This document shows positions 1,901 to 11,660 of a DNA stretch of 11,887 bases, piece after piece (the stretch's first letter is position 1; each line of letters starts with the position of its first letter). A program made the translations under genes and the position numbers. Source of the DNA: Bdellovibrio sp. (GTDB lineage: Bacteria > Myxococcota > SpSt-1050); NCBI GenBank assembly GCA_020725805.1, contig DYEF01000079.1:1-11887 (forward strand), given 5' to 3'. Below the pieces are notes generated by a model. The model saw nothing but the letters and a program-made list of their open reading frames with translations, was not told the DNA's origin and searched no databases.

Positions 1901-3856
1901 TCACTCTTCGATAATAAATTCTACCCTTCTGTTCTGCTCCCGTCCCTTTGCAGTCTTATTGGAGGATATCGGTTTGTCGGGACCATATCCGGTTGCCTCG
2001 AGCAGTTCCTCCCTTATGCCCTGCTTTATCAGATAATCCTTCACCGCATCCGCCCTCTCCTGTGAGAGTTTTATGTTCTTCTCCCGATTACCGGTATCAT
2101 CGGTATGCCCTTCTATTTTCACCTTTTTAATCTTCGGATTTGAATTAATCGCATCAACTACCATATCCAGAATAATTGTAGAATTACCCATAATCTTCGC
2201 TGAATTCTTTGCAAACTGAATCTTCTTCTTGAGGGTAATCCTGTCCTTTTCGACAATGACAAGCGTATCCTTCGGCTTATCCTTCAGCTGAAGTTCAAGT
2301 GATGTCTCTGAATTCAGCTGCACCTCTGCTATCTTTCCAGTTGAGAGTCTGTGTTCGGATTTTGCCACCACATACCATTTGCCTGCCGGCAGTTTCGACT
2401 TATAGACGCCCTCCTCTGTCCTTTTGATTTCCACCTGCCTGTCTCCGCTGACAGCCGTAACCTCCGCATCTGATATTTTTACACCCTTTGAATCAAGAAC
2501 GTTTACTACAATTGTGCCGTCTACAATCTTCTTTTTGAGATATATCTTCACAATGGATTTATCATTCTTCTTAATTTCAACTACTGCCATTGCGGGCTCG
2601 TAACCATCCTTGAATATACTGAAATTATATTTGCCCGGACTGAGTGGCGGTGTTGTAAAATCCCCATATATCGGGTCGGTGGCAAGATTGGTTAGACCAG
2701 TACCCTCCATTACTATAATTGCATTACCTACAGCAGTCTCACTCCCTTCCTCATATACGAATCCCTTGGCAAATCCTGTCTCAACAGGAGGAGGCCCTTT
2801 TCTGCAGGATTCATCACAGACCTTCTCAACAACCTTCTCCTTCACCACTTTTACCTCATAGGAAGGTTTAATTCCGTAACTCAGTCCCAAGACGATATTG
2901 TAATGCTGTGTCGTCGGTGCATACCGCGGTGTCCCTCTGAAGATACCAAACTCCGCAACAAGGTCAAAGGTCAGGTCGAACTTCTCGAACGGCTGATATT
3001 TTATACCACCTGAGGCATATCCCGGTCCGTCAGGATAACCGAAACTGACCTCAGTAAAGGGAAGCAGTCTCTCCTTTCTTAAGGGGAAATCGGCTCCGAA
3101 ACCAAACAAAAACTGCTTCTGCTCATTCATATTCAGCAGATAATGACTGTAAATATTGAAATTCTCTCCGAATGGTTTGTCCTGTATAAGATATGCACCC
3201 AAATTCAGATGCAATCTCAGAAAACCGATACCCAGACTCTTTGCATCAAATGTCGTGACTGACTTCAGTGTATAGCCCGTAGCGTCAAACGAATATGTGG
3301 AATCACCGGGTTTTGTATTCAATGTAATAATTGCCGATGCACCTGTTGACAGGTATTTCAGGACCGGATACGCATATCTGACGCCGAGCGAGATATTCCC
3401 CTGTGAGAGCTGAAGTCTGGGAACGACCTTGTCATTGTAAGTCGAGATAGTCTGGTAGAGCGCAAAGATTTCGAGATTATCATAGGGCACCACGCCGAAT
3501 GACAGGTCGCCAACCTGCCTGTGAGTCGTATCCCCTTTTATCAGAAACTCCCTGAAATAGAACCACTCTCCGTGGATATTGAGCCTGAGACCGAGCGCCT
3601 TTAATGGCTCTGCTGACGAGACTTTCCAGAGTCCGGTCTCACCGAAGTAGGCACCACCGGTCGATAAATCCGGGTACTCTCTCGAAGTATTCTGAGAACT
3701 CTCTGTAGTACCAGCAGGCTTCACCTCCGTCTTACTATCCGTAGCCTTAACAGGTCCTTTATGTGAGTCTGCGGCCGTTAAAGGATTCGGCGTCTGTGCC
3801 GAAAGAAAGAGCGGAAAGAGGAAAAGAGCAACTATTACAAGCCAGAATCTCGACAT
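1901..3856 (-). CDS. OmpA-family outer-membrane protein with carboxypeptidase-regulatory-like modules
   Basis: Likely anchors an outer-membrane barrel to peptidoglycan. Residues 1-20 are a signal peptide with cleavage predicted at LSA|QT, followed by a Thr/Ser/Lys-rich linker to about residue 60. Residues 65-330 hold amphipathic beta strands of the barrel type seen in Myxococcota OmpA proteins. A charged hinge, KVVKEKVVEKV (336-346), leads to two cysteines (347 and 351). Two beta-sandwich modules follow: 360-440 resembles a carboxypeptidase-regulatory-like domain (a GxAxGxV start, then PPLSPGKYNF), and 445-525 is a second Ig-like module. Residues 535-651 are an OmpA C-terminal domain with GHTDDTG and NIKLSQERADAV; Asp586 and Arg601 match the peptidoglycan-binding pair Asp271/Arg286 of E. 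coli OmpA. AGGAGG (complement of 3866-3871) lies 9 nt before the ATG. The gene starts 66 nt after the giant cysteine-repeat gene, so an operon is likely. Confidence 0.93.
   Translation of the reverse strand: MSRFWLVIVALFLFPLFLSAQTPNPLTAADSHKGPVKATDSKTEVKPAGTTESSQNTSREYPDLSTGGAYFGETGLWKVSSAEPLKALGLRLNIHGEWFYFREFLIKGDTTHRQVGDLSFGVVPYDNLEIFALYQTISTYNDKVVPRLQLSQGNISLGVRYAYPVLKYLSTGASAIITLNTKPGDSTYSFDATGYTLKSVTTFDAKSLGIGFLRLHLNLGAYLIQDKPFGENFNIYSHYLLNMNEQKQFLFGFGADFPLRKERLLPFTEVSFGYPDGPGYASGGIKYQPFEKFDLTFDLVAEFGIFRGTPRYAPTTQHYNIVLGLSYGIKPSYEVKVVKEKVVEKVCDESCRKGPPPVETGFAKGFVYEEGSETAVGNAIIVMEGTGLTNLATDPIYGDFTTPPLSPGKYNFSIFKDGYEPAMAVVEIKKNDKSIVKIYLKKKIVDGTIVVNVLDSKGVKISDAEVTAVSGDRQVEIKRTEEGVYKSKLPAGKWYVVAKSEHRLSTGKIAEVQLNSETSLELQLKDKPKDTLVIVEKDRITLKKKIQFAKNSAKIMGNSTIILDMVVDAINSNPKIKKVKIEGHTDDTGNREKNIKLSQERADAVKDYLIKQGIREELLEATGYGPDKPISSNKTAKGREQNRRVEFIIEE
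1904..1909 (-). promoter_or_regulatory. Ribosome binding site inside the end of the OmpA gene
   Basis: The last two sense codons of the OmpA gene, GAA GAG, form a purine-rich GAAGAG site immediately before its TGA, 9 nt upstream of the ATG of the 104-aa gene. No other good site precedes that ATG. Ribosomes finishing OmpA would therefore reinitiate here. The site supports this start codon and implies coupled expression. Confidence 0.55.
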
Positions 3857-3922: not shown

Positions 3923-6900
3923 TCATTTGGTACAGGTCCCTTTTCTGCACCACTCACCGGGCCCGCAGTCAATATTGCTGAAACACTGCGGCTCATACTG
4001 ACAGTATCCGAATTCACAGATCATTCCGGTCGAACAATCTTTATCGGTAAGACAGTTGATAGCAGGCATAAAATAACAGGCGCCGCCAAGACAATACTGG
4101 TTCTTCGGACACTCTGAATCCTTTTCACATCCTCCCGGATTGACACACATCCTGTTGATACACTGCAACCCGTAGAAAGGACAATCTATATCACTCTCAC
4201 AGTAAAACGGAGGAATGCACCTTCCTGCATGGCAGGTAAAATCCCTGTTGCATTCGGCATCAGAGGAACAACCTATCGGCTGACACCTCCCTCCGTCGCA
4301 TCTCTCACCTGATTTGCAGTCGGAATCGAGCCTGCAGTCAGGCCTCGGATAACATACATTGAACGAACAATATGAGTTTGCAGAGCAGTCAGCATCGGTA
4401 TTGCACAGTCTTGTGGTCATACACGTATCCCCGAAACAGAGCGAGAGTGGCGGACAATCTCCGTCATTATTACATGACAGTCTGGGTGTGCATATACTCA
4501 TAAACAGGTCGCATATCTGACCGGTGGGACAATCGGCATCCTTTGTGCAGTCCTTTTTTACTATACACTGGTAATTTATACAGACAGAACCCTTCGGACA
4601 TTCGGAATCCGTACGGCACTGACCCGCGAATGTACAGAGCCCGTTTATACACTGATACCCTGCGTTACAGTCGGCATCGATTACACAACCACCGGAGACA
4701 GTACATTTCCCATTGACGCAGACCTGTCCTGACTTGCAATCCAGATTGCTATAACATTTATCCTTTGGTTCGCATGATTCATACAGACATCTGTAACCGG
4801 CCGGACAATCTGCATCGGTCTCACACCCCTCTCTCGGCAGACAATAGCCAAATGAACATTTTGTATTTGCATCACAGTCGGCATCGGTCCTGCACATCTG
4901 GGGCCACATATAATAGCAGACTCCCCCCAGACAGGCCTCGGGAGGAGTGCAGTCTGTATCCTTCTGACAACCACCGGAAGGCACAGTACACACATAATTC
5001 CGGCAGACCTGCTGCTCAAACGGGCAATCCTTATCGGTCGAACAATAGAGCGGCGGATAACAGATTCCGTAATGACAGAGCCAGTTGTAATTGCAGTCTG
5101 AATTCTTTGTGCAACTCCCCGGCTGACAATAGCCATAGTCGCATCTGTAACCAGTCTTGCAATCCGAATCCTTTGTACAACTCGGAATAAATGTGCAGAT
5201 ACCCTGATTACAATAGTTCCCCGAAGGGCAGTCTCCGTCGCTTTTGCACGGTATAAGCTGGCTGCACTGATTACTAATACAGATAAATCCTGAACCGCAG
5301 TCGCCGTCGGACTGACAGTACTTGTTTGTCACACATGTATGTGTATAGAAATCGCATATTTTTCCGTAGGGACAATCAGAATTCTTCTCGCATTCGGGCT
5401 TCAATATACAGGAGTAATTGTAGCATCTCATATTCGAGGGGCAATCAGAATCCTTCGTGCACTGTCCCATATACTGACACTTGTTGTTAAGACAGAGATA
5501 ACCTATACCGCATTCCTGGTCGGTTTTGCACTGATAGGCATACGAACAGACGTTATTTGTACAGACATAACCCGGACTGCAGTCTGAGTCCTTAATGCAC
5601 TGACCCTGAAAGATACATTTGAAGGAAATACATTTATAATTCTGAGGACATTCTGAATCAGTCTTACACTCCCCACCGAAGACACACTTAAAATCCTTAC
5701 AGATGTATCCGCTCTGACACTCGCTGTTTGTCTTGCATTCACCGTTAAAGACACACTGTCTGTTCTGACAGATATGTCCTGCGGGACAGTCCGAATTTAC
5801 CAGACACTGACCCTGATACGAGCAGAAGAAATTGATACATTTATAACCGGTCTGACACTCAGAGTCCTTCGTGCACTCGCCTACAAACTGACAATAATAA
5901 TTCTTACAGGCATATCCTGCCGGACAATCTGAGTTGTTGTGACACTGTCCGGTAAACTGGCAGTTCCCTTTATTGCAGATATATCCGTCAGGACAATCCT
6001 TATCGGTCGTACAGCCAGTGGGTACACAATAGTATGACTGGCACTTATAACCCTGCTGACATTCATAATCATACTGACACTCACCGGCAAAACTACAACT
6101 GTAATTTATACATTCATAACCATATGGACAATCATTATTTGTCCTGCACTGACCTGAGAAGACACATTTGTAGTTTATACACTTAAACCCGGCCGTACAA
6201 TCAGTGTCTTTCTGACACTGCGGAGAGAAGGTACACTGATTATTTATACACTTGTAATTTTCCGGACACTCAGAATCACTCTTGCACTGCGGCAGATATA
6301 CACACTGACCGTTCTGACATTTGTACCCGGGCTTGCAGTCCGAATCTGTCTTGCACACAGGAGAATAAACACACTGATTATTAATGCACTTATATCCTGA
6401 CGGGCAATCTGTATCAACCTTACATTGCGGCTGATAGAGACACTGACCATTTACACACTTGTATCCCATAGGACAGTCAGTATCATATTTACAGCTTCCC
6501 GGACACTTACTCCACGTTCCATCCTTGTTGACACAGCCGATACCCGGGTCGCACCAGGGCATAGTACAGCAGGCATTTCTTCTGCTCGAGAGCGGGGCAC
6601 ACATCCCGTTCCCGCAGGCAAGATACTCAGGACAATCACAATCTGTCTTACATACATTCTGCTGACACTGACCATTTATACACAGATAACCATAAGAACA
6701 GTCAGCATCTGATTTACATCCCGTCTGTTGCTGGCACTGTCCGTTAAGACATCTGTAACCGGCAGGACAATCCACATCACTCACACATCCGGCCTTCTCG
6801 CACTTTCCGTCCTTGCATCTGTAACCGGCAGGACAATCCTGGTCAAGTGCACATTCGGGCTTCTGGGAACAATATCCGAAATTACATACATATCCCGGTT

Positions 6901-9475
6901 TGCAATCCCTGTCGGTCTTACAGTTATTCGGCGGCAGCTTGAAACACTTACCCTGAATACACTCATATCCCGCCTTGCAGTCCTCGTCTGCCTTGCACTC
7001 CGCAGCAGTGCATACGCGGTTGATACACTTCATTCCAGGGAAAGGACAATCAGTATCCTGCTCACAATAAAAAGTCGGGAAGCAGTTGTGATTATAACAG
7101 TGCCAGTTATATCTGCAGTCGGAATCTGTGTTGCAGTAGATAACCATACAATATCCGTACTCACACCTCTCATCGGGTTTACACTCATCATCGTTTTTGC
7201 AATCGGGTATAAACTGACAGACTCCGTCCTTACAATACGTCCCGTCCTTACAATCGACATCGCTCTTACAGAGTGTATATTTCTGGCATACTCCTCCGAG
7301 GCAGACATGGTAGACGGGGCAGTCTCTGTCGGTATTACAGCTTATCTTTTTTATACAGGTGTGGTCAAAAAGATTACAGACATATCCATCGGGACAGTCC
7401 TTATCTCCTTCGCATTCCGGCATTGGTTCACACTTTGAGTTGAAGCACTGATACCCGAACGGGCAGTCAGAATCGGTCTTGCAGAGGACTTTGGGTTTAC
7501 AGGTTCCGAATGAACAGTAATAATCCTTCGGACAGTCCGAATCCACCTTACACTCTGTATAAATAACACAGGCTCCGTCCCTGCACACATATCCTGACGG
7601 ACAGTCCTTATCGTATTTGCAGTTCTGAATCTGACACTGATTATTCACACACCTGTAGGAAGGCGGACAATCTGTATCGTAAATGCATTGGGGAGAGTAA
7701 CATTTGTAATCCCTGCAGAGCCATCCTTTGGGGCAATCGGTATCCTTTGTACACTCCGGCTTGAATACACACTTGTACATCTCACAGACATAAGGGTACT
7801 TGCAGTCAGAATCGCTTCTGCACTCTCCCTTGAATACACACTTGTTATATTCACAGACAAATCCGTAGGCACAGTCTGACGAAGTTTTGCACTCCAGAGG
7901 GCAGACCGACCATGTTCCGTCAGGATTCACACACTTCTCATTGGGACCACAGAAGAGATTAGCGCAGCATTGATTGAGCCTGTTTACAACCTGACAGCTC
8001 TTCTGCTCTATCGAGTTCGAGATACAACCCATATACGGGTCACAGTCACAATCAGTCTTACACTCTTTTGCCTTACATACGCCATTAGAGCCGTCGGGAT
8101 TTACGCACTCTTTCCCTTCGGGGCAGGACGGGTTAGTGCAGCACATATTTAATCTGTCTGTCGCCATACATATACCGTTTGTGCAATTCTCTGAATAACT
8201 GCAGTCGCAATCAGTCTTGCAAAAGGTCAGAGGTTCACACCTGTTTTCCCTGCAGTAATAACCTTTCGGACAATCAGCATCTTCCTTACAATATCCTTCC
8301 TTCGGAACACATATATACTGCCTGCATTCATACCCTTTCTCACACTCCGAATCAGTACGGCACTGCATAGCAAACTTGCAATACCTCTCTTTGCATACAT
8401 ATCCGTAAGGGCAATCCTTATCGGTATTACACTCCCCCGGGCACTTCGAATAACTCCCGTCGGGATTTACACAGGATTCGCCAACAGGACAATTATAATC
8501 ACCGCAGCATCTGTTTTCAGAGCCATCAAACGAGCAGTATTGCAGAATAGCATTACAATTACCTTTCCCGATACAATCACAGTCGTTTGTGCATCTTCTG
8601 TTATTACAAATAGCATATGAGCCATCCTGATTAACACACTCTCTACCTTCCATACAATCCGGATTATCGCAGCACATATTTATTCTGTCCGCATACTGGC
8701 AGACATTATCGATACAGGCCATCGAGAAGTCACACTGACAGTCATTGGAACATTTGGACTGCTTCGGCACACACTTGCAGAGGTCTGTATCGCAATAATA
8801 TCCGTATTTGCACTGCTCATCTATAGAACATTCCTTGCCGTAACATTTAGTCTTCTTATAACATTTGCAGTCATAACAGAATTCATCCTTTCCGCATTCG
8901 GAATCAGAACGGCAATCACACTTCTGACATTTGCCTGATATACAGAAATATCCGTAGGGGCAATCTTTATCGGATTTACAATTATCATTGGGAACACACT
9001 GGTTCCCGACACATTCGTAGCCGTCGGGACAGGCCTTGGTGAGTGAACATTCGACCTCCTTGCATATTCCGGCAATACATTTGTTGTTCTCAGGGCAATC
9101 CGAATCTTTGCTACAACTTTCGCCTTTGATGCATTTGTGGTCTTTACATATATATCCGCTTCTGCAATCCGCGTTTACTACACATTCATAACTTTGCTTT
9201 TTACAAAAACCATCTACGCATTTCTCCCCGTCTTTACAATCAGAGTCTTTGATACAGTTGCCGCTGCTCAGACAGACTCCGTCTATGCATTTCTGACCCG
9301 AAACGCAGTCCGAATCGGTCTCGCACTGCTTCTCTGCCACACATCTGTTATTTACGCAGCTGAAACCCGACGGACATTCCGAACTGTACATACAGGTATC
9401 AGGCGCAGTCCTGCCGCACGTAGTCAGAACAAGTGCAAAAAGAAATAATCCCAGACAGAAATATAAATTTTTCAT
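3923..9475 (-). CDS. Giant exported cysteine-repeat protein (1850 aa, 72 units), putative lipoprotein
   Basis: Almost the entire chain from residue 28 is a run of 72 units with consensus C-x5-C-x5-C-x4-C-x5, as in CKTDSDCPSGYKCINNQC: about 320 cysteines and many Asp residues. I know such repeats from Myxococcota secreted proteins, where they draw Dickkopf-N or EB-module-like matches; no enzyme motif is visible. With two disulfides likely per unit, it should form a long, stiff, protease-resistant extracellular rod. Residues 1-19 are a hydrophobic signal, with TTCG at 18-21. Cys20 could be lipidated, although Thr at -1 departs from the usual Gly/Ala/Ser. I chose the ATG at 9475 because AGGAGG lies 6 nt upstream; an in-frame ATG at 9508 has no ribosome binding site and would put a charged extension before the signal. 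It lies between an exported ASH/PKD protein and an OmpA protein, suggesting a shared surface structure. Function unknown. Confidence 0.92.
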   Translation of the reverse strand: MKNLYFCLGLFLFALVLTTCGRTAPDTCMYSSECPSGFSCVNNRCVAEKQCETDSDCVSGQKCIDGVCLSSGNCIKDSDCKDGEKCVDGFCKKQSYECVVNADCRSGYICKDHKCIKGESCSKDSDCPENNKCIAGICKEVECSLTKACPDGYECVGNQCVPNDNCKSDKDCPYGYFCISGKCQKCDCRSDSECGKDEFCYDCKCYKKTKCYGKECSIDEQCKYGYYCDTDLCKCVPKQSKCSNDCQCDFSMACIDNVCQYADRINMCCDNPDCMEGRECVNQDGSYAICNNRRCTNDCDCIGKGNCNAILQYCSFDGSENRCCGDYNCPVGESCVNPDGSYSKCPGECNTDKDCPYGYVCKERYCKFAMQCRTDSECEKGYECRQYICVPKEGYCKEDADCPKGYYCRENRCEPLTFCKTDCDCSYSENCTNGICMATDRLNMCCTNPSCPEGKECVNPDGSNGVCKAKECKTDCDCDPYMGCISNSIEQKSCQVVNRLNQCCANLFCGPNEKCVNPDGTWSVCPLECKTSSDCAYGFVCEYNKCVFKGECRSDSDCKYPYVCEMYKCVFKPECTKDTDCPKGWLCRDYKCYSPQCIYDTDCPPSYRCVNNQCQIQNCKYDKDCPSGYVCRDGACVIYTECKVDSDCPKDYYCSFGTCKPKVLCKTDSDCPFGYQCFNSKCEPMPECEGDKDCPDGYVCNLFDHTCIKKISCNTDRDCPVYHVCLGGVCQKYTLCKSDVDCKDGTYCKDGVCQFIPDCKNDDECKPDERCEYGYCMVIYCNTDSDCRYNWHCYNHNCFPTFYCEQDTDCPFPGMKCINRVCTAAECKADEDCKAGYECIQGKCFKLPPNNCKTDRDCKPGYVCNFGYCSQKPECALDQDCPAGYRCKDGKCEKAGCVSDVDCPAGYRCLNGQCQQQTGCKSDADCSYGYLCINGQCQQNVCKTDCDCPEYLACGNGMCAPLSSRRNACCTMPWCDPGIGCVNKDGTWSKCPGSCKYDTDCPMGYKCVNGQCLYQPQCKVDTDCPSGYKCINNQCVYSPVCKTDSDCKPGYKCQNGQCVYLPQCKSDSECPENYKCINNQCTFSPQCQKDTDCTAGFKCINYKCVFSGQCRTNNDCPYGYECINYSCSFAGECQYDYECQQGYKCQSYYCVPTGCTTDKDCPDGYICNKGNCQFTGQCHNNSDCPAGYACKNYYCQFVGECTKDSECQTGYKCINFFCSYQGQCLVNSDCPAGHICQNRQCVFNGECKTNSECQSGYICKDFKCVFGGECKTDSECPQNYKCISFKCIFQGQCIKDSDCSPGYVCTNNVCSYAYQCKTDQECGIGYLCLNNKCQYMGQCTKDSDCPSNMRCYNYSCILKPECEKNSDCPYGKICDFYTHTCVTNKYCQSDGDCGSGFICISNQCSQLIPCKSDGDCPSGNYCNQGICTFIPSCTKDSDCKTGYRCDYGYCQPGSCTKNSDCNYNWLCHYGICYPPLYCSTDKDCPFEQQVCRNYVCTVPSGGCQKDTDCTPPEACLGGVCYYMWPQMCRTDADCDANTKCSFGYCLPREGCETDADCPAGYRCLYESCEPKDKCYSNLDCKSGQVCVNGKCTVSGGCVIDADCNAGYQCINGLCTFAGQCRTDSECPKGSVCINYQCIVKKDCTKDADCPTGQICDLFMSICTPRLSCNNDGDCPPLSLCFGDTCMTTRLCNTDADCSANSYCSFNVCYPRPDCRLDSDCKSGERCDGGRCQPIGCSSDAECNRDFTCHAGRCIPPFYCESDIDCPFYGLQCINRMCVNPGGCEKDSECPKNQYCLGGACYFMPAINCLTDKDCSTGMICEFGYCQYEPQCFSNIDCGPGEWCRKGTCTK
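3986..4549 (-). repeat. Eight-unit super-repeat, copy 3 (units 64-71, residues 1643-1830)
   Basis: Third copy: DLFMSIC in the first unit, a 22-aa fourth unit (GRCQPIG), IPPFY ending the fifth, CPF with a six-residue loop in the sixth, a long YFMPAIN tail in the seventh and FGYC in the eighth. A final ordinary unit, 72 (residues 1831-1850), closes the protein at Cys-Thr-Lys. Confidence 0.8.
4550..4825 (-). repeat. Spacer units 60-63 (residues 1551-1642)
   Basis: Four ordinary 23-residue units separate super-repeat copies 2 and 3, giving a 12-unit period between these copies. The first, with CPAGYRC, resembles unit 32, which follows copy 1. Confidence 0.8.
4826..5392 (-). repeat. Eight-unit super-repeat, copy 2 (units 52-59, residues 1362-1550)
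   Basis: Units match copy 1 in order: DFYTHTC in the first, a 22-aa fourth unit with GYCQPGS, YNWLC and YPPLY in the fifth, CPF plus a six-residue loop in the sixth, a long YYMWPQM tail in the seventh and FGYC in the eighth. Confidence 0.8.
5393..6493 (-). repeat. Uniform tandem block, units 36-51 (residues 995-1361)
   Basis: Sixteen consecutive units, fifteen of 23 residues and one of 22. Most follow CxxDSxCPxGYKCINxxCxFxG(Q/E). The linker before the next unit usually ends in Gln or Glu, often GQ or GE. This is the most regular part of the protein and lacks the special units seen elsewhere. Confidence 0.85.
6494..6652 (-). repeat. Enlarged ten-cysteine unit 35 (residues 942-994)
   Basis: The fifth and only solitary enlarged unit: CKTDCDC start, RRNACC turn, CVNKDGTW and a terminal CPGS. 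It immediately precedes the longest run of uniform units. Confidence 0.85.
6653..6853 (-). repeat. Ordinary cysteine units 32-34 (residues 875-941)
   Basis: Three standard units of 22, 23 and 22 residues between the first eight-unit block and the last enlarged unit. Units 32 and 33 share CPAGYRC and an identical 24-bp DNA segment. Confidence 0.85.
6750..6839. repeat. 24-bp identical direct repeat, 66-bp period
   Basis: Bases 6750-6773 and 6816-6839 are identical over 24 bp and encode the CPAGYRC core of units 33 and 32. Most other units encode similar residues with different codons, so this pair looks like a comparatively recent local duplication or conversion. Confidence 0.8.
6854..7414 (-). 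repeat. Eight-unit super-repeat, copy 1 (units 24-31, residues 688-874)
   Basis: Eight distinguishable units in fixed order. The first is long, with an extra two residues before its last cysteine (NLFDHTC). The fourth is short (22 aa, ending GYCMVIY). The fifth has YNWHC and FPTFY. The sixth begins its loop CPF with six residues to the next Cys. The seventh has a long tail (FKLPPNN). The eighth carries FGYC. The same order recurs in copies 2 and 3. Confidence 0.8.
7415..7891 (-). repeat. Ordinary cysteine units 17-23 (residues 529-687)
   Basis: Seven standard units of 22-23 residues with the usual C-x5-C-x5-C-x4-C spacing. They lead into the first copy of the eight-unit block. Confidence 0.85.
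7892..8221 (-). repeat. Enlarged ten-cysteine units 15-16 (residues 419-528)
   Basis: A second adjacent pair of enlarged units, 53 and 57 residues. Both start CKTDCDC and contain a (D/N)RLNxCC turn and CVNPDG(S/T). Unit 16 has a five-residue insertion between its fourth and fifth cysteines. Confidence 0.85.
8222..8431 (-). repeat. Ordinary cysteine units 12-14 (residues 349-418)
   Basis: Three standard units of 23, 24 and 23 residues, for example CNTDKDCPYGYVC, separate the first and second pairs of enlarged units. Confidence 0.85.
8432..8752 (-). repeat. Enlarged ten-cysteine units 10-11 (residues 242-348)
   Basis: Two adjacent units of 53 and 54 residues begin CxNDCxC, with Cys in place of Ser of the usual C..DSDC. 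Each adds a second half with a CC pair, then C, then CVN(Q/P)DGSY and a final C. Each has ten cysteines. Three further copies occur downstream (units 15, 16 and 35). Confidence 0.85.
8753..9394 (-). repeat. Cysteine units 1-9 (residues 28-241)
   Basis: Nine N-terminal units of 22-28 residues. Units 1-6 are ordinary four-cysteine units. Units 7-9 gain extra cysteines (5, 6 and 5), for instance YDCKC in unit 8 and DLCKC in unit 9, and lengthen just before the first enlarged units. Repetition is at protein level; the DNA copies are diverged. Confidence 0.85.
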
Positions 9476-9677: not shown

Positions 9678-11660
9678 TCACCTCAGTTTACAGGTGCAGC
9701 CGATGCACTTTGATATACTTCTGAGTGTCCACGGCTGAAGCGGAACTACTTTTACAGTATCACCACTACCCTTTTTGGGCCACTGGATTATCGCCACATC
9801 CCAGGCCTGTTTGGATTTATTGAGTGTAAAAGGTCCGAAAATCCATTCCGGTTTGTTTATTCCGTTTATATAGAGTTTTACCCATGCATCAGATGAGCCA
9901 ATTCCCTGATCGTTAAAATAATAAACCGTGATTTTGTAATTGCCTTCAGCAGGGCTGACGATATTTATATTCTCTGGCCCAAACCCTTCTACATCATCGA
10001 TATCAAGTGTCGGGTTATCCTCTACTGCCGCTTTATAATCGGGACTATCTGTATCCGGTTCACAGGTCAGCACACACTTATTTCCCCCTTTATAACAGGC
10101 CGGGTCTCTTGTAAGCAGAGATTCACCGGCATCATTTGAGCTTATACAGACAGCATCAACCCCGTAATTCGGTATACACTCGGGGTCACAGGTATTCCCG
10201 AGAGGGTTCTGGCAGCAAAACTGACTATCGCCCGAATCCGCAGGCAACTCCTCGGTATCGCCCGGCTCACCTGCATCCGTTGTCCCGCAGATATTCTTAT
10301 ACGGTACAGGACTCCCCCAGTCGGGATTACGGTTGCCTGTATAGCAATCACAGGGGCAGGAAAACATTCCGTCACTCCCCTGAGGTTCATAGGATATTGC
10401 CGAGAGATTTATAAGATGCAGGTCCATATCTGTCAGAGGGGTATTCCATCTTAACTCTATATGCAGTGCCTGTGCGGCATAACCCTGTATAGGACAGAAT
10501 GCCGGATTGCTCTCGAGCGATGTGGCATCCTTTACAATGAGTTTTACCTTATAATCACCCACAATATCCCCGAAGAATTTCGTTATATCCTTTCTGGAAT
10601 CCTTGAAATGAGTATTCCTCCCCATCGCACAGTCAAAACAATAATCAGAGCCTTCGGGGATTATCTCTCTGCTGTTCTCGTCCTTTGCTACATTCCACTG
10701 AAATCCTACAATCGGGTCATCATTGGGGTCTGTCGAGAACTTCCCTGAAAGTTCTATTTCGCCCGGAACAGCGAGCTGAACAGGATTATTTTCATTGCAC
10801 TCAACCCAGTTTCCTTTTACTTTGGCATATATCTTTGCAACAGGTGGTTCATTCTTTGGCTGTTCTATTCCTCTGCCCTTGAGATTTATCTTTGCCTCAC
10901 GGTTTTCGGGGTCATCGGTATGCAGAGTCAGGATACCTGCATATTCCCTTATCTGCTGGGGGATAAAGCTGACAGTTACCGTTAGTGATTCACCCGCCTT
11001 AACTACAACAGGCAATTCCCTTATGTCCGGCTGGGTTATTGCAAAAGAATCCGGGTCATTCGAAAATTCAAATTTGTAAATGGAGAGCGGACCCGCACCT
11101 GTCCCGTTCCAGTTCGAAACGACGAAATCCCTTGTCTGGGTATATGTAACCCATACATTCCCGAAATCCAGTTCATTTTTATCAAGACTCATCTTCGGCA
11201 GCATCCCCTCGCCGCTTACCGGAATCTTCAGCTCCCTCTTACTGAGAGTCTGCGCATTACTCTTGATTAGAACAAAATACTTATAGATTACAATGTCAGC
11301 CGGAGTAAATGATATTACAACTGCCTCAGGCTTGCCGTTTGAAACCTTGAGAGTTGATTTGTCTGACTTAAAGAGTCCCGAGGGAGCAGGATTCCCCTTG
11401 TCATCAACAAAGAGTATCTCAGAGACCTCGAGTTCCCTGGACTTCTGGACGGTATTCGAGATATAAACCGTGATATCCTTTTTGAATAATTTTGCCACCT
11501 TTCCGAAGAGCAGTTCTGTCACTTCCCTGGACTTTGTCTCATCCAGAACCTTAATATCCGGAGATATAGAACCAATTGAAGTCTCGTCATCGCAACTGCA
11601 TCTGATGAAAAGCAGTGATAAGACAAGCAATACCAAAAAATAGAGTCTGCTTACTGACAT
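9678..11660 (-). CDS. Exported ASH/HYDIN-PKD protein with C-terminal DxDLHL domain
   Basis: An envelope protein of 660 aa with no recognised enzymatic motif. Residues 1-20 are a hydrophobic export signal ending IRCSC; lipidation at Cys21 or Cys23 is possible, but neither has a standard lipobox. Two ASH/HYDIN-like (choice-of-anchor D) Ig domains occupy about 34-152 and 155-265, the second with LDFGNVWV and FVVSNWNGTG. A PKD-like domain (272-378) contains STDPNDDPIVGFQW. The C-terminal domain (398 to about 640) is a type I know from Myxococcota: DMDLHL (411-416), NPDWGS (445-450), LDIDDVEGFGPENI and WDVAIIQWP (620-628). An insert at about 451-535 holds nine cysteines. A GGGAGG site (complement of 11670-11675) lies 9 nt before the ATG. 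The 202-nt gap to the giant gene leaves co-transcription uncertain. A role in binding or assembly at the cell surface is inference. Confidence 0.9.
   Translation of the reverse strand: MSVSRLYFLVLLVLSLLFIRCSCDDETSIGSISPDIKVLDETKSREVTELLFGKVAKLFKKDITVYISNTVQKSRELEVSEILFVDDKGNPAPSGLFKSDKSTLKVSNGKPEAVVISFTPADIVIYKYFVLIKSNAQTLSKRELKIPVSGEGMLPKMSLDKNELDFGNVWVTYTQTRDFVVSNWNGTGAGPLSIYKFEFSNDPDSFAITQPDIRELPVVVKAGESLTVTVSFIPQQIREYAGILTLHTDDPENREAKINLKGRGIEQPKNEPPVAKIYAKVKGNWVECNENNPVQLAVPGEIELSGKFSTDPNDDPIVGFQWNVAKDENSREIIPEGSDYCFDCAMGRNTHFKDSRKDITKFFGDIVGDYKVKLIVKDATSLESNPAFCPIQGYAAQALHIELRWNTPLTDMDLHLINLSAISYEPQGSDGMFSCPCDCYTGNRNPDWGSPVPYKNICGTTDAGEPGDTEELPADSGDSQFCCQNPLGNTCDPECIPNYGVDAVCISSNDAGESLLTRDPACYKGGNKCVLTCEPDTDSPDYKAAVEDNPTLDIDDVEGFGPENINIVSPAEGNYKITVYYFNDQGIGSSDAWVKLYINGINKPEWIFGPFTLNKSKQAWDVAIIQWPKKGSGDTVKVVPLQPWTLRSISKCIGCTCKLR
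10056..10310 (-). other. Cysteine-rich insert in the DxDLHL domain (residues 451-535)
   Basis: This stretch interrupts the domain between NPDWGS and LDIDD and holds nine cysteines (458, 482, 483, 491, 495, 505, 522, 529 and 533). It also has an acidic low-complexity run at about 461-478. Residues 482-505 closely follow the spacing of the second half of the enlarged units of the neighbouring giant protein. Confidence 0.6.

Follow-up and report, generated by a model that had tools for sequence, protein, structure and literature searches.

A conserved, ordered block of eight four-cysteine units in a family of predicted outer-membrane lipoproteins

Comparison of the locus with TraA/TraB and with known repeat families

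The closest described counterpart of the locus reported here is the TraA/TraB system of Myxococcus. The cysteine-rich stalk of TraA is thought to present its head and to rest on the barrel of TraB, an AlphaFold prediction places a second TraA head on that barrel, and the OmpA domain of TraB binds peptidoglycan (PMC12045341). This OmpA domain is required for exchange and dispensable for adhesion (PMC12045341), and the distal repeats of TraA are essential (PMC6372800).

The locus lies in an 11,887-nucleotide stretch of DNA (hereafter, the window) belonging to the 3.29-Mb draft genome (115 contigs, 97.9% complete) of an uncultured, myxobacterium-like organism. Among relatives whose records carry a name, the closest is Deltaproteobacteria bacterium SKW273, which is metagenome-assembled; its locus, L052, is the same as that of genome G001. 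On the minus strand of the window, an open frame (9508-3923) encodes a protein of 1861 amino acids, 325 of which are cysteines. Alignment with the corresponding proteins of G001 (same genus) and G002 (same order) makes 9475 (MKNLYFC...) the more likely translation start in place of 9508. The N-terminus carries a signal peptide and lipobox, MKNLYFCLGLFLFALVLTTC-GRT, with no aspartate at position +2, and the homologues are built likewise; judged by this signal, the protein is predicted to be a bacterial outer-membrane lipoprotein. The lipid-anchor cysteine, which follows the lipobox LTTC, opens a CGRT motif (9407..9418, minus strand).

The first four-cysteine repeats start 8 residues past the lipid-anchor cysteine. 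They follow the pattern C-x5-C-x5-C-x4-C and end in tails that are four to seven residues long; the last of them, unit 69 (3926..3985, minus strand), forms the C-terminus of the protein, with endings of identical type in G001 and G002. Five insert modules of the form CKTDCDC...CC...C....CVNPDGSWS.CPG (hereafter, CC/NPDG modules) represent a second, separate module type; four are found among the units of the N-terminal stretch (residues about 253-539; 7892..8752, minus strand) and the fifth at 6494-6652 (minus strand), and they are kept in G001 and partly in G002. No separate ligand-binding domain was seen beside the repeats of the lipoprotein. A phage origin was considered and rejected, as the lipoprotein has no PHROGs match and the block described below has no match in viral contigs. 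The upstream neighbour (9678-11660, minus strand) encodes a lipoprotein-like protein of 660 amino acids with a choice-of-anchor D/ASH-type domain; it does not adjoin the corresponding gene in G001.

The repeats themselves belong to known families. DUF7107 (PF23416) matches 12 stretches of the lipoprotein with 246 bits (gathering cut-off 24.6 bits), Dickkopf_N (PF04706) scores 58.5 bits against a gathering cut-off of 25 bits, and TIGR04201 (Myxo_Cys_RPT) scores 90 bits against a cut-off of 25 bits. All three curated models detect units only: the 48 positions of DUF7107 span about two units, DUF7107 and Dickkopf_N describe one or two, and neither they nor TIGR04201 describe an ordered octet. The searches made of Pfam and NCBIfam returned no description of such an octet, and none of the papers retrieved in a search of the open literature names DUF7107 or describes the block.

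The gene 66 bp downstream (1901..3856, minus strand; hereafter, the partner) encodes a protein of 651 amino acids with a barrel-like N-terminus, CarboxypepD_reg domains and a C-terminal OmpA domain according to Pfam. The OmpA peptidoglycan-binding domain (PF00691, 78 bits) occupies residues 548-643 (1928..2215, minus strand).

In being exported, in carrying many TIGR04201-type cysteine-rich repeats and in adjoining a gene for an OmpA protein, the lipoprotein resembles TraA (NF033759). TraA, however, bears a MYXO-CTERM tag and, at its N-terminus, a variable PA14-like domain, whereas the window protein has a lipoprotein anchor, far more repeats, and the eight-unit block that TraA lacks. Assignment as TraA was rejected on a score of 36.3 bits versus the curated cut-off of 750. 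Pfam returned cysteine-rich repeat families only, with no PA14-like domain in the lipoprotein, and no MYXO-CTERM tag was found, the protein ending in the repeat unit CRKGTCTK with neither a transmembrane segment nor an arginine-rich tail. Conversely, the block model gives true TraA sequences no more than 26.5 bits. The partner in turn shares with TraB (NF033763) a barrel-like N-terminus, a C-terminal OmpA domain and its place beside a cysteine-rich repeat protein, but has CarboxypepD_reg domains where TraB has a TSP3 linker (PMC12045341). It scores 80.4 bits, in the OmpA domain only, versus a cut-off of 700, so that assignment as TraB was also rejected. Alignment of the whole partner with TraB is confined to the OmpA domain, and its barrel has no detectable homology to that of TraB (hhalign probability 0.2%, no alignment).

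The ordered block and its recurrence in other genomes

The first-pass annotation had described three occurrences in the lipoprotein of a block in which eight distinct four-cysteine units stand in a set order, and this description is confirmed with its coordinates and spacing exact. Copy 1 comprises units 22-29 (residues 699-885; 6854..7414), copy 2 units 49-56 (residues 1373-1561; 4826..5392) and copy 3 units 61-68 (residues 1654-1841; 3986..4549), all on the minus strand. The residue offsets between the copies are 674, 281 and 955, precisely as had been claimed; the first units of the copies, 22, 49 and 61 in our numbering, were previously counted as 24, 52 and 64 because the CC/NPDG modules are not counted as units here. 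The features said to give each unit its identity are likewise present in every copy: the long loop between the third and fourth cysteines of unit 1, the length of 22 amino acids of unit 4, the unit 5 endings FPTFY, YPPLY and IPPFY, the CPF and six-residue loop between the second and third cysteines of unit 6, the long tail of unit 7 and the FGYC of unit 8.

The proposed register was expected to score above shifted ones, and does so clearly. With Cys-Cys matches set to zero, the three pairs of copies score 221, 246 and 221, versus 124 or less for the available registers shifted by one to eight units. Raw scores alone place the block pairs no higher than 34th and 67th among 1128 octet pairs, since adjacent tandem units (about 27-41) are near-identical. 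When each unit is centred on its own mean score, the pair 22/61 ranks first and 49/61 third, and the top ten are all block pairs or slides of two units or fewer along the same diagonals. The observed pair and triple scores were never reached when the unit order was shuffled 1000 times, the best shuffled triple being 12.2 versus 23.7 observed. Recent duplication or homogenisation was rejected as the source of the likeness between the copies: the three window copies are 43-44% identical to one another, whereas copies in the same place are 82-88% identical between the two genomes of the same genus (88% for copy 2 and its G001 counterpart).

A block profile was run on relatives of the locus and in a scan of one genome per species, returning 79 loci; the contig scan was seeded with alignment A4, the first wide alignment, A3, being too diverse. 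Seventeen of these loci contain 27 full-length copies whose block scores exceed those from a generic octet profile, built from eight-unit stretches of the same window, by more than 100 bits; loci L067 and L075 each hold one further copy, with a margin of 77 bits. The block loci come from Myxococcota and Bradymonadales, including Lujinxingia vulgaris TMQ2. All three copies are present in G001, with the last two again 281 amino acids apart. G002 has the last two copies, also 281 apart, together with a paralogue that carries one copy; copy 1 was not found in this genome. More distant genomes of the phylum hold two to five copies, and across the family a protein carries one to four blocks. Copies are often paired, usually 259-329 amino acids apart, and the C-terminus often lies 20-51 amino acids past the second. 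Strict block matches came from 7 of the 195 genomes sampled in the phylum, a figure that probably underestimates the spread of the block because only 17 candidates per genome were scored. Much of the compared material is metagenome-assembled. Block-related repeats also occur in three contigs labelled as archaeal (L087, L090 and L117; Micrarchaeota, Altiarchaeales and one unclassified), which may reflect misbinning or transfer. A 1576-residue frame in G011 (L048:4249-8979) holds four block copies and adjoins a Ser/Thr-kinase-like gene.

The real module had been proposed to be the block of about 187 amino acids and not the 23-residue unit. Comparison of homologues, which had been suggested as a check, bears this out well beyond the window gene, with all eight units and their order retained across the 17 loci. 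In an alignment of 31 copies (three from the window, the 27 full-length copies and that of L067), none of the 32 cysteines varies, units 4 and 5 have constant lengths of 22 and 23 amino acids, and the loop between the third and fourth cysteines of unit 1 always has six residues. DUF7107 matches every block and Dickkopf_N 30 of the 31. Residues typical of the block (R83, P91, R110, P113, P162-P163 and F180-G181) are conserved in 80-94% of the copies. Register 0 is the best of eight in all 422 block pairs drawn from different lineages, at a mean column identity of about 51%. Between genomes, units at the same position score 12-32 on average, versus about 5 off the diagonal. The claim that the copies keep unit identity stands for the block as a whole, with best matches falling on the corresponding position 68% of the time versus 12.5% by chance, but is weaker for units 2 and 3, for which the figures are only 45% and 33%.

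The units flanking the block are not position-specific, with scores of 8-12 between lineages, so the eight-unit length and the edges of the block are right. A ninth, upstream unit, suggested by the good score of units 48 and 60 within the window, found no support in the homologues. In a tree, the copies join by position across genera and not by genome, first copies grouping with first and last with last in, for example, the Sandaracinaceae-type and the Bradymonadales loci. The duplications are therefore old, and the copies have not been homogenised.

Predicted structure and conservation of the block

AlphaFold2 predicts the fold of a single block (copy 3, with 31 sequences) confidently, at a pLDDT of 91.7 and a pTM of 0.81, and the model consists of eight beta hairpins in a row. 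In a model of the C-terminal 489 amino acids (pTM 0.43), the two blocks have pLDDT values of about 68-89, and the linker of units 57-60 between copies 2 and 3 (4550..4825, minus strand) is predicted at a low confidence of about 49-69, a difference that depends also on alignment quality and may partly reflect it. These models are consistent with rigid blocks set on a looser linker.

No solved structure covering the eight-unit arrangement was found by sequence or by fold. The best Foldseek match of the block has an E value of 0.22, and VIA gave a Z-score of 2.2 over 28 residues; the N-terminal region of Dkk4 matches the block weakly (E 0.23, TM 0.13-0.24) and is absent from the VIA list. Single units weakly resemble squash inhibitors and Dickkopf domains in structure. 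With the cysteine-rich domains of Dickkopf, squash-inhibitor (knottin) and TNF-receptor type, the block shares small disulfide-linked hairpins, but none of these covers its arrangement of eight units.

On another reading, each block could act without the OmpA partner, as a module that binds a ligand or a metal, Ca2+ or a glycan being examples. Acidic DxDC loops and conserved R, W and Q residues of units 4-5 would suit such a role, and in these two units D75, R83, Q90 and R110 are conserved, with a common aromatic residue at position 104. A paralogue at L064:7383-9947 has one block fused to a PAF-acetylhydrolase-like/dienelactone-hydrolase-like domain, with the partner absent, and 10 of the 18 other loci, some of which are near contig ends, have no partner gene next to that of the block protein. 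The DxDC loops, however, occur in most units, inside and outside the blocks, and no solved binding protein matches the block. We consider independent binding modules unlikely as an explanation.

Alternatively, the blocks might be the trace of old segmental duplications in repeats that serve as a passive spacer, their order kept by descent alone. Proteins of this kind grow by duplication, and both the missing copy 1 of G002 and the varying block number per protein would fit. Against this, the unit order is kept in every one of the cross-lineage pairs at the column identity given above, and the units that adjoin the block lose their identity. In comparison with L052, the nearest relative, dN is 0.07-0.09 for copies 2 and 3 and 0.10 for copy 1, versus 0.13 for the linkers and 0.19-0.26 for the N-terminal repeats; blocks 2 and 3 thus have the lowest dN in the lipoprotein, the comparison being of dN only since dS is saturated. 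Descent alone appears to us an improbable account. The block may have one defined function.

The OmpA-domain partner and a proposed surface stalk

The partner adjoins the block gene in 9 of 19 cases, comprising the window and 8 of the 18 other block loci. Its relatives lie downstream of the block gene in L052 and L063 and upstream in L055, L056, L058, L060, L067 (where the gene is cut by the contig end) and L073; in L056 and L073 the stop of the partner overlaps the likely start of the block gene. The existence of two gene orders in divergent lineages argues for a working partnership, and gene order suggests a pairing of the lipoprotein with the OmpA protein. Full-length relatives of the partner are also present in four searched genomes that have no strict block, and the partner therefore has other roles as well.

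The block proteins carry CGR[S/T] after the lipobox in nearly all cases, with CAR or CSR in a few, and the motif is found in none of 36 other lipoprotein-like, not cysteine-rich open frames of the same loci. In G002 (L050:5345-11494), the gene that follows the partner codes not for the cysteine-rich lipoprotein but for a CGRS lipoprotein of 1240 residues that consists of Big_2 domains. This arrangement implies that CGR[S/T] may mark the lipoproteins that are served by the partner. A giant frame of 3715 amino acids on contig G000:C29 has a CarboxypepD_reg/OmpA end (16872-18596, minus strand) that is 60% identical to the window partner, and also matches the N-terminal model of TraB with 57 bits; a similar but shorter frame is found on G001:C133.

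The shared logic of a cysteine-rich repeat protein beside an OmpA protein, and the weak matches to both models, might suggest a divergent form of the TraA/TraB outer-membrane-exchange system, but this reading is very improbable given scores of 36 versus 750 and 80 versus 700 bits (the latter from OmpA only), the lack of a PA14-like domain and MYXO-CTERM tail, the low scores of real TraA on the block model and barrels that do not align.

We propose instead a surface stalk that is tethered to peptidoglycan through the OmpA partner and in which the block is a rigid disulfide module, an explanation whose chances we judge to be about even. Packed in constant order, eight different two-disulfide hairpin units would form a single stiff supradomain of 187 residues. 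The family carrying it, in one to four copies, would consist of outer-membrane lipoproteins of Myxococcota and Bradymonadales that are marked by a lipobox and then CGR[S/T]. The lipid would anchor the protein at the outer membrane, from which the disulfide-stiffened stalk would project, presumably exposed on the surface; the blocks would be its rigid segments for binding or docking, with looser generic repeats connecting them. The partner encoded alongside, with its putative barrel, its CarboxypepD_reg domains and its OmpA domain, may contact the lipoprotein physically and would link the complex to peptidoglycan in the way that TraB serves TraA. Such a stalk would be compatible with a role in adhesion or recognition. 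A more specific version, which we put forward tentatively and hold to be doubtful in its entirety, is a two-component surface system distinct from TraAB in Myxococcota and Bradymonadales, in which an ordered-block stalk lipoprotein with CGR[S/T] as its export mark docks with a cognate barrel/OmpA protein and acts in contact or recognition.

Repeat databases see proteins of this kind as strings of one unit of 23 or 48 amino acids. The unit of evolution is instead the ordered octet, which has been kept for a very long time and is probably the unit of structure as well. As such, it is a domain open to expression, structure solution and mutation, and its profile singles out one lipoprotein family among the many cysteine-rich repeat proteins. 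The linked OmpA partner suggests a function for these block lipoproteins, and CGR[S/T] can be tested as a candidate signal for sorting lipoproteins to the surface. Should the pair act in contact or adhesion, the phylum would have a second surface-contact design beside TraAB.
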